DNA of 64,000 nucleotides from Sipunculus nudus (lineage: Eukaryota > Annelida > Sipuncula > Golfingiida > Sipunculidae): positions 47,127,327-47,191,326 of the forward strand of contig CM049308.1 in assembly GCA_026874595.1 (NCBI GenBank). Reading direction: 5' to 3'. Made by a program: the position numbers and the translations under genes. Positions 27,360-35,023 of the stretch are shown one piece after another; positions within the stretch are counted from its first letter, which is position 1, and every line of letters starts with the position of its first letter. Below the pieces are notes generated by a model. It was not told the origin of the DNA. It did no database searches and saw nothing but the letters and a program-made list of their open reading frames with translations.

Positions 27360-27391
27360 CACGTCCAGAACCGCCGTGTCCATTTGCCTGT
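27360..27391 (+). repeat. Left terminal inverted repeat of the RAG element
   Basis: CACGTCCAGAA is the terminus. A second shared block, CATTTGCCTGTG, lies with TTTGCC at element positions 24-29. The right end has a similar block 11 bp deeper. Confidence 0.85.
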
Positions 27392-27601
27392 GCACAATTA
27401 ACGTTGTGTCTCTTGTCCGCTAGGGGCGTCACGTACGGAGCCTCAGATGGAGGCCGTAATGGTTATTCATATCAACTGCACTCACTGCCGTATATTTCCC
27501 TATTGAGGGCAAGCTGAACTTCATGACATGACAGATGTAAACAAAGGAAATGTGTGCGTTGATTTGGGACCCACTTACGGTGATTTTTTCACTATTTAAG
27601 A

Positions 27602-28287
27602 GTGAGTATGATTTTTTTAATGAAATAATTTTCCTAAAAAATTACTTTTTAATTTATATTTTTTTCTCAAAAACCCATGAAAACACATGTTAGGGGATAG
27701 TTCCCAAAGCAAGTCCAGGTCATGTCCCATGCAGCCTGCAAGATGGCTGGTCCTTCCACATCCTTCCATTTTTTTTCTGGACTCTGAAACCTCCTCCTAT
27801 ATATAGGTATATAAAATTGCTGTTTTGAGCTGTAAAATTGCACATTTGAGCTGTTTCAGCTATAAAATGCTTTTCTTTTTTTATAGAATGAATCTAAAAT
27901 GCTTTAAAAATGTCACTTTAAATTTCATGACCCAATTCAGTAATTGAGGGTTACTGGGGGGGGGGGGGGGGGAGCAGAAGATGCATCTTTAAAAAACTTC
28001 TATTTGTATACATTTATATGAAACATTAACAGAAACATAGCTTGCCATCCTCTAGAAAATCTGTAATAATTTTCTGACATAAAATTAATGTCTAAATATT
28101 GACATAAACAGCCAAAATAAAAAACAAAGTTATGATTTTTATAATAACTTTTCCCTTAGGCTATACTTCCATCTTTGTATTGGACATGTAGACCTTTGAA
28201 AATAAAATAGCTTTTGCAGTAACATGAATACATTAAAGCTTGCACATAATAAATAATTATACTTGCATGGATATTCTTTCAATACAG
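27602..28287 (+). other. Possible 5'-UTR intron of RAG1L
   Basis: A donor-like AAGA|GTGAGT at 27602 and an acceptor-like TTCTTTCAATACAG ending at 28287 bracket a non-coding stretch just before the RAG1L start codon. The interval also holds an 18-G run (about 27956-27973). The intron is inferred from splice consensus only. Confidence 0.35.
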
Positions 28288-28295
28288 CTGCTCAA

Positions 28296-33346: not shown

Positions 33347-33359
33347 GAATTATTCTTTA

Positions 33360-34342
33360 TTACAAATTATCAGTGGTACTATCTGAATCTGTAGTTATGT
33401 TGATGGGTATTTTAGAATTGTTCGGTTCCACATTGGGGTCAATTGTTGGATCTGAGTCTGAGCTTACCTTTATAACTGAATAATCATGCTTTGGGGTGCT
33501 GTGGGCTAATGGTCCTTCATCATCTAACCTGAATGAAGTACTAAGAAATATCCGAGGTGGGTGTATATGATGGTTGACTCTGAGCTTGATGTTGAGGTAA
33601 TAAGTGAGGGAGTATGTATGGTCGGATGTTTAATGGCATCATCAGTACATGGCTGTGGTGAGATACTCCTTGAATGTGGACTATCACTGTCCCTGGGGGG
33701 TGTGAATACCTCATCAGACTGTGGGGGACTGGTTAATGAACTAAATGTTTGTTGGCTGAGGTGGTATTTGAAATGAAACATTGATGACTGGCTTTCCTGC
33801 TTTTGTATAACACTAGGGCCAGGGTCTGCTGGGTTTGTTTGGATAATAGACTCTGAGCTTGATGTTGAGGTAAAAAGAGAAGGAGTATGTATGGTCGGAT
33901 GTTTAATGGCATCATCAGTACATGGCTGTGGTGAGATACTCTTGGAATGTTGACTATCACTGTCCCTAGGGGGTGTGAATACCTCATCAGACTGGGGGGG
34001 ACTGGTTAATGAACTAAACATTTGTTGGCTTAGGTGGTATTTGAAATGAAACATTGATGACTGGCTTTCCTTCTCTTGTATAACACTAGGTCCAGGGTCT
34101 GATTGGTTTGCTTGGATAATAGACTCTGAGCTTAATGTTGAGGTAAAAAGAGAGGGACTGCATATATTATGCTGCTGCCTACACCTCAAAAGGCCAGGGA
34201 ATGTTTGGCTGGTTTGGGGACTAGAAGTTGGGGAGTGAGATGATGAAGTAAACAAAGAGGGGGTGGTTTCAATTTTGGTTGGTCGGGGCTCTTCACCATC
34301 ACTGTCAGATGCTGAAAGGCTCAAGGAGGCAGTTGTCTTCAT
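33360..34342 (-). pseudogene. Third ORF of the RAG element: Ser/Pro-rich protein with internal duplication
   Basis: From ATG 34342 the frame gives a Ser/Thr/Pro-rich, acidic, probably disordered protein of unknown function. A module of about 92 residues (PSLFTSTxSSESIIQ, DPGPSVIQ, SSMFHFKYHLSQQ, SPPQSDEVFTPPRDSDS, SISPQPCTDDAIKHPTIHT) occurs twice in tandem with a partial third copy; the DNA unit is about 276 bp. The frame stops at 33524-33526. However, the neighbouring frame stays open from about 33575 through LDDEGPLAHSTPKHDYSVIK to a TAA at 33360-33362, with AATAAA overlapping the stop, so I infer a one-base shift and an original protein of about 325 residues. It has no signal peptide, membrane segment or zinc motif. 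It could be a separate gene, an accessory ORF, or an upstream exon of RAG2L. I recognise no family. Confidence 0.6.
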
Positions 34343-34980
34343 ATTAACTATTAAATAGTTTATTTATAAACAATATTCAAATAATCTGTGCAAATATGCA
34401 CTTGTTACTTGTACACAGACACTATTCATACAGTTAAATTTTACCCCTGCTTCAGAATTCTATGTTCAAAGATCACCCTTTGACCTTACAAAGACTAGCA
34501 AAAATTAAAATAATATTATATATAAAACAATAAATAATCACCTTCAATTTTCCAGTTGGCTCGCCAAGAACCAGACAGGTGTCGATTACACAGCCATGTT
34601 ACGTCAGCTGATGATCACAATAATTCCAACAAATTAAGAACAGTTAAAAGTACACTAAAGGCTCAAATAATACAATCTAAACAAAACTGTATAAAACTGT
34701 CTATCTAACTATACCTATCTAAACATTAATTTATCTATAAAAATGGTAAATCTCGATCTATCCAGAATGACTGACTAATAACCTGTTGCGTAAATCAAGC
34801 GAGTAGCACCTAATGAACCATGCAACTGCAGACAGCTGAGCTCGAAGCGACGCGGAGTAACATGTGCAGGTGTTTACAAAACACCGAAGGGCATGACCGC
34901 GTGACCTTTCAGATGTCACCTGACCCTGTCGCTGATTGGTTGACCCGTAGGTACGTAAATATTCATGAGCTTTTTGACCC

Positions 34981-35023
34981 ATTGGCAAACGGCACCAGCG
35001 AAGGTACAATATTTTTGGACGTG
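34981..35023 (-). repeat. Right terminal inverted repeat of the RAG element
   Basis: Read inward on the minus strand it begins CACGTCCAAAAATATTG; a block CGTTTGCCAATG follows, with TTTGCC at positions 35-40 from the end, 11 bp deeper than the matching block at the left end. Confidence 0.85.

Follow-up and report, generated by a model that had tools for sequence, protein, structure and literature searches.

The V(D)J recombinase descends from RAG-like (RAGL) transposons. RAGL_A transposons have reportedly been described in hemichordates and echinoderms in a paper of 2023. In a 2020 study, RAGL transposons are reported from molluscs and a nemertean, with complete and potentially active elements in protostomes, and protostome RAGL ends follow the consensus CACTWMCAAACKTYKBB (PMC7204232). 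According to that study, a RING finger is found in mollusc RAG1L and not in echinoderm or nemertean RAG1L, and a PHD in all invertebrate RAG2L except that of amphioxus. Protostome RAG1L is marked there by V at mouse position 649, a hydrophobic residue at 848 and a Cx2Cx3GHx4C tail, and the presence of V and a hydrophobic residue instead of E and R at 649/848 is linked to uncoupled cleavage and transposition. Another study lists 786 RAG1L and 191 RAG2L homologs in 173 species (PMC9435367).

The 64,000-base stretch of Sipunculus nudus DNA analysed here (the window, C3:47127327-47191326 in an assembly of 1,426,538,692 bases and 153 contigs) contains a real, decayed RAGL transposon at 27360-35023. 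It is very probably a fossil copy of an autonomous, ProtoRAG-like cut-and-paste element. It probably belongs to RAGL_B, and amphioxus RAG1L, which is of family B, is nearer to it than vertebrate RAG1 is. Both ends open with CAC, the first bases of the element being CACGTCCAGAACC and the last ...TTTTTGGACGTG. The 5' inverted end (CACGTCCAGAACCGCC..., 27360..27389, plus strand) was delimited by alignment to a copy at C7:29.13 Mb; an identical start is found on C7 and C12, and 11 of 15 bases equal the 5' end of subfamily C, described below. The 3' inverted end, reading inward CACGTCCAAAAATATTG... (34994..35023, minus strand), was placed by end comparison and by the same alignment.

The octamer CACGTCCA occurs at just two sites in the window, 27360-27367 (+) and 35016-35023 (-), against a mean of 0.45 expected. 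Since two or more occurrences are reached in 6 of 100 shuffles, this match is weak on its own. The borders are independent of it, because the C7:29.13 Mb alignment shares them, beginning exactly at 27360 and stopping at 35021. Past the first 8 bases the ends diverge (10 of the 15 leading bases are equal), and aligning its outermost 400 bases locally yielded no extended inverted repeat at the ends. The left 240 bases match C7:29141480-29141717 (93%) and a 102-base fragment at C12:61761875 (92%), and the right 244 bases have one other match, C7:29132842-29133082 (95%). The C7 copy spans 8,878 bases, its main pieces being 93-96% and its smaller ones 87-98% identical to the window, and constitutes a second full-length copy with the same borders. 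The element is flanked by AATGA (27355..27359) and CATGA (35024..35028), which agree at 4 of 5 positions, a match expected about once in 64 by simple arithmetic. The sister copy on C7 has no matching duplication (TCGTG/TGCTT), while those of two subfamily D elements are exact. The first-pass annotation had described matching termini and a near-perfect 5-bp duplication, and had named a lack of further genomic copies sharing the ends as a ground for refutation. The copies were found, one full-length on C7 and a left-end fragment on C12; the termini hold for 8 bases and for the shared borders but not beyond, and the duplication stands at 4/5 without a counterpart in the sister copy.

A 16-base direct repeat, CTTTGGCAGACTGCCA, lies immediately to the right of the element (35351-35382). 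Further away, a 278-residue open frame at 3890-4726 (-) resembles, by eye, part of a non-LTR retrotransposon reverse transcriptase, and a tandem repeat at 117-833 translates into repeated LYRLVMIGFSLL.

The RAG1L gene (28296..31238, plus strand) is broken into four frame segments with an in-frame TAA at 30203-30205; compared with its open relatives, it carries three frame changes and one stop. It encodes a RING finger at 28953..29066 (+; Pfam zf-C3HC4, E 4.7e-8). The first catalytic Asp lies in DGMGEV (29915..29932, +), the second in ATHADINMA (30509..30535, +) and the catalytic Glu in SSEGNEAGNK (30993..31022, +). The C-terminal tail motif CGICHMDGHNRLTC (Cx2Cx3GHx4C, known from PMC7204232) follows at 31161..31202 (+). 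The catalytic D, D and E and the tail are all kept, spread over shifted frames. Pfam models match the RAG1 family (PF12940, E 4e-23 and 1.3e-16) and the RAG1 importin-binding region (E 2.8e-8). Among solved structures the C-terminal piece matches amphioxus RAG1L (6b40) best (E 5.4e-25), and the window core is 45% identical to it over 604 aligned residues. At mouse positions 649/848 the window copy has V and M, which are transposon-type residues; among the 25 RAG1L loci, 649 is V in 20 of the 24 that align and 848 is L or M in 20 of 20.

RAG2L lies tail to tail with RAG1L (31290..32628, minus strand, start ATG at 32628, low-coordinate end approximate), and contains Kelch repeats and PHD-like cysteines. 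Its lesions comprise one or more frame changes and two stops, one right before LLLFGG and one past YSRDKR, and its C-terminal end seems damaged as well. A Kelch-type model gives E 1.6e-8 with 34.6 bits, below the model cut-off of 50, and Kelch_3 exceeds its own cut-off. The PHD-like stretch (31322..31423, -) reaches E 2.4e-4 and 21.5 bits with PF00628, under the cut-off of 24. The convergent, ProtoRAG-like RAG1L-RAG2L layout that had first been read from the DNA is upheld by the Pfam RAG1 and Kelch matches, with amphioxus RAG1L as the best solved relative. The search with RAG1 core and RAG2 Kelch/PHD profiles, set beforehand as the test able to refute that reading, returned significant RAG1 and Kelch matches. 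The DGMGEV, ADINMA and SEGNE motifs are present, though in different frames, and of the two RAG2L domains Kelch is matched above cut-off by Kelch_3, the PHD only below its cut-off.

A third gene-like frame, rich in Ser, Thr and Pro and built of 91-residue repeats, is located between RAG2L and the right end, i.e. upstream of RAG2L (33360..34342, minus strand). It is open for 279 residues, a length equalled in none of 1000 dinucleotide shuffles of the region (longest 217). After one frame change it terminates in ...DSDSTTDNL, with a stop that overlaps AATAAA. The C7:29.1 copy shares the final 58 residues at 97% identity, with its repeat part broken; no further place matching this frame was found. 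Two of the window repeats differ in 16 codons, 6 of them silently, and the codon differences give no sign of selection.

With both genes broken, which the first-pass annotation does not mention, the window element is a dead fossil. The sister RAG1L has frame changes at other places, an Asn instead of the first catalytic Asp, and no counterpart of the segment that carries the catalytic Glu. Because the lesions sit at different places, the two copies appear to have decayed separately, after insertion, from a less damaged ancestor. It could be argued that the element is living and intact and that its breaks are assembly errors: frame changes imply indels, and the region has long single-base runs. 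The stops, however, resemble substitutions, frames of 957, 994 and 398 aa are unbroken in the same assembly, and the sister copy is broken elsewhere, including its two catalytic losses. We consider assembly error very unlikely.

A protein search detected 28 RAG1L matches in the genome and none in 14 control genomes, and a RAG1 family search gave 34 matches, all 34 above the cut-off, again with none in the 14 controls. After merging of overlapping matches, at least 25 RAG1L loci remain, a lower bound. The RAG2L search gave 38 matches. Judged from the coordinates, a RAG2L match adjoins 18 of the 25 RAG1L loci and is convergent in all 18. The exceptions are C2:3.87, C11:62.8, C14:21.66, C14:21.76, C3:57.21, C3:75.27 and C5:9.27 Mb, the last with its nearest RAG2L match about 30 kb off. 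A search for RAG1L relatives in viral and prokaryote contigs with six short patterns, which reach close relatives, confirmed none. Egg lysin and the hemocyanin beta-sandwich, searched as markers of a mollusc host without a positive control, had 0 matches in the genome and 0 in the 14 controls. The combination of RAG1L RING and RAG2L PHD found here fits the mollusc pattern of PMC7204232, in agreement with the probable mollusc genome of the first-pass annotation.

DNA comparison separates four young groups, here called subfamilies: A, the window and C7:29.1 copies (93-96%); B, C2:3.87 and C7:16.3 (98.9%); C, C11:72.6, C14:33.1 and C17:17.0 (97%); and D, C10:30.49, C7:53.2, C3:52.1, C3:75.2 and two copies on C13 (92-98% to C10). 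In a tree of 24 RAG1L loci rooted on amphioxus, one of the 25 being left out for short coverage, subfamilies A, B and C group with C11:62.8 (SH-like support 0.997), and subfamily D groups with the remaining, mostly older copies (0.991). The deep branches are rough, because the alignment was projected on one query. Other subfamilies in the same genome look younger than that of the window. Two subfamily D RAG1L copies lie in opposite orientation within 8 kb at C13:53577345-53584990. On C9, an interval of about 17 kb separates two old RAG1L-RAG2L copies (C9:15975444-15979371 and C9:15993279-15996598), which resemble a local duplication. The most divergent RAG1L, C15:40043654-40046770, shares 26-35% identity with the others compared, has an adjoining RAG2L match and may derive from another RAGL family.

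The best-preserved copies belong to subfamily D. In the 12,220-base element at C10:30485511-30497730, RAG1L and RAG2L are both open, the two ends are present and the flanking 5-bp duplication is exact (ACACA/ACACA). Its RAG1L is uninterrupted over 957 aa and its RAG2L frame is open for 470 residues, with Pfam matches to RAG1 (E 5.8e-68), RAG2 (25.5 bits, cut-off 21) and PHD (24.9 bits, cut-off 24). Among solved structures, amphioxus RAG1L scores 507 bits against C10 RAG1L (43% identity over 614 aligned residues of the core) and vertebrate RAG1 at most 284; amphioxus RAG2L is the best solved relative of C10 RAG2L (E 5.4e-20). The window RAG2L is 31% identical to that of C10 across both halves. 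A near-twin at C7:53.2 Mb (12,699 bases) has one RAG1L stop and an exact GGATG/GGATG duplication, and homology between the two elements runs from CACATACAGATGTG to ...CATTTGTAAGTG. Only C10 has both genes open among the five elements read end to end (window, C7:29.1, C10, C7:53.2 and C11), and the remaining loci may include additional intact copies.

Subfamily D has its own extra frame upstream of RAG2L, of 132 residues with three CxxC...CxxH motifs, which matches no Pfam family at cut-off. Whole or partial matches to it occur at six D loci, and a weak one beside C5. The frame terminates in TAG-TC-ATG; splice-like sites suggest that it would be spliced to the RAG2L exon, reading M-CEPDTSE..., which would give a RAG2L of 471 residues, with this ATG as its start. 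Codon differences between C10 and C7:53.2 (silent/changing) amount to 5/14 in RAG1L, 3/4 in RAG2L and 0/3 in the extra frame, and no constraint is seen in these few differences. The extra frames of the window and of subfamily D are thus supported by their open length, by conserved ends and by a signal of poly(A) type, and not by selection. Between RAG1L and RAG2L, bases 4716-5767 of the D element form an array of repeats of about 155-165 bases. Consensus-based prediction of ends in the first 10-kb stretches of C10 and C2 gave wrong or unusable results; the D ends were settled by comparison of copies, and the consensus search found no ends for the C2 element.

The C2 RAG1L has an open frame of 994 aa without a RAG2L match nearby and is a candidate solo or co-opted RAG1L. 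Downstream it is flanked by a long array of short repeats (C2:3868501-3878500); its near-twin at C7:16.3 Mb does have a RAG2L match. Domestication has been proposed for RAG1L-RAG2L pairs without ends (PMC7204232), and this open C2 gene would fit such a history. For the window to hold a domesticated host gene pair instead of a transposon is nonetheless highly improbable, as the pair is broken, both ends are present and a second copy elsewhere has the same borders.

Subfamily C provides evidence for insertion. When each end of C11 is searched together with 50 bases of its flank, the matches in C17 and C14 break off at the element border (query position 50 or 51), which defines the ends as CACGTTGAAAAACGCC and CACGTTCAACAATTTCC, flanked in C11 by TCCCC/CCCCC. 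A consensus scan of C11 gave a top pair, 1066/7930, that agrees with the copies; an alternative end at 582 is not supported by this comparison. The C11 flanks belong to a dispersed repeat, and the left flank matches 10 repeat places. Seven of these match both flanks, with the flanks overlapping by 5 bases as in paralogous empty sites (C14:57837711-57837715, for example). The alignments leave out the final two bases on the left, and at the C2 site also the final five on the right, and these were extrapolated. The remaining 3 of 10 have no right-flank match among the matches listed (40 of 54 candidates scored).

Out of 17 consensus positions, the 5' and 3' ends fit at 10 and 13 in the window, 9 and 12 in subfamily C, and 11 and 16 in subfamily D. 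Of the 1635 CAC sites in the window, 571 score at least 10, 33 at least 13 and none 16. Over 15 bases, subfamilies A and C agree at 11 positions between their 5' ends and 12 between their 3' ends, and within a single element the 5' and 3' ends share 10 (A), 10 (C) and 11 (D) bases. Position 4, a T in the consensus, is G in each of the four A and C ends. Because of this G and the poorer consensus fit, the ends of A and C seem to be a variant form of the protostome end, a comparison of few elements that says nothing of recognition. The window ends also share the 9-base block CC[A/G]TTTGCC at position 21 on the left and 32 on the right, an 11-base offset reached in 22 of 500 shuffles. We do not claim a 12/23-like asymmetry, because subfamilies C and D lack a similar block (447 and 196 of 500 shuffles).

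Several points speak against a RAGL transposon in the window: the 4/5 duplication and its absence in the sister, the 10/17 fit of the 5' end, and the PHD score. The reading is carried by the RAG1, RING and Kelch matches, amphioxus RAG1L as best solved relative (and amphioxus RAG2L as that of the C10 RAG2L) and ends shared by a copy. It is further supported by the exact 5-bp duplications in subfamily D, the 5-bp overlap at 7 of 10 empty sites and the 18 convergent pairs among 25 loci, and by the catalytic D, D and E, V and M at 649/848, and the independent lesions of the two copies. A chain labelled 'DNA-mediated transposase', 6pqn, which we take to be a Transib transposase, matches a window RAG1L piece at E 0.002. 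A Transib element, i.e. a RAG1-related transposase without RAG2L, lying by chance beside an unrelated Kelch gene would share CAC ends and 5-bp duplications, yet we regard it as next to negligible given that amphioxus RAG1L is far closer than 6pqn, that the RAG1 N-terminal region and RING of the window are absent from Transib, and that 18 of the 25 loci show the same pairing with a RAG2L match in convergent orientation (Transib features from PMC7204232).

For the RAGL transposon we propose, by analogy, that RAG1L, a DDE transposase, together with RAG2L would have bound the CAC-starting ends. Homology with ProtoRAG and RAG suggests recognition of about 15 bases of each end (PMC7204232). Nicking and hairpin formation would then have released the element, its insertion at a target cut with a 5-bp stagger would have produced AATGA/CATGA, and the element would have decayed after insertion through frameshifts and stops, separately from its sister. 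Movement of the window subfamily by its own proteins, like any present activity, is likewise suggested by analogy.

The genome around the element is more interesting than the window copy itself. The first-pass annotation held that a copy with both ends, target site and both genes would be a useful record of recombinase spread, but this copy is dead and C10:30.49 Mb and C7:53.2 Mb are better records. It is not the first complete protostome RAGL either, because such transposons were reported in 2020 (PMC7204232). What is possibly new are the extra frames upstream of RAG2L, which differ by subfamily, and a CACGTY-type end common to two subfamilies; the portions seen of the open-licence literature consulted contain no mention of a third gene in RAGL elements. 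It is conceivable, if somewhat doubtful, that a third gene directly upstream of RAG2L was acquired separately in two deep lineages, coding in the window subfamily for an acidic protein rich in Ser, Thr and Pro and in subfamily D for a different, small one with three CxxC...CxxH motifs, so that RAGL would not always be a two-gene element. On the same tentative footing, with a CACGTY-type end in one lineage and a CAC[A/T]TACA-type end in the other, two RAG-like recombinases with separate signals may have coexisted in one genome. With at least 25 RAG1L loci in a chromosome-scale genome, ranging from dead copies to a pair of open genes whose target duplication is exact, RAGL lineages and their signal ends can be compared in one host, and it can be asked whether the lineages cross-recognise ends and whether the extra frames served transposition. 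These findings add to the published picture of protostome RAGL without overturning it.

Among known systems, Transib shares CAC ends, 5-bp duplications (exact here in subfamily D, 4/5 in the window) and a DDE core with the elements described here (PMC7204232), but lacks the RAG2L and RAG1 N-terminal region that the window has. Vertebrate RAG1/RAG2 likewise form a convergent pair with a RAG1 core and N-terminal region, Kelch and PHD; they differ in lower similarity (284 bits with C10, against 507 for amphioxus), in E and R at 649/848 and in the lack of transposon ends. ProtoRAG of amphioxus (6b40) resembles the window in gene layout, RAG1L core and V and M residues, whereas its RAG2L has no PHD and its ends are unlike past CAC (PMC7204232). 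The bivalve RAGL_B elements described in the same source have the CAC ends and convergent RAG1L and RAG2L seen here, 5-bp duplications like the exact ones of subfamily D, as well as the RAG1L RING, RAG2L PHD, Cx2Cx3GHx4C tail and V plus hydrophobic residue at 649/848. In contrast to these, the window copy is dead, position 4 of the ends is G in the window element and in subfamily C, and subfamilies A and D add a reading frame upstream of RAG2L.
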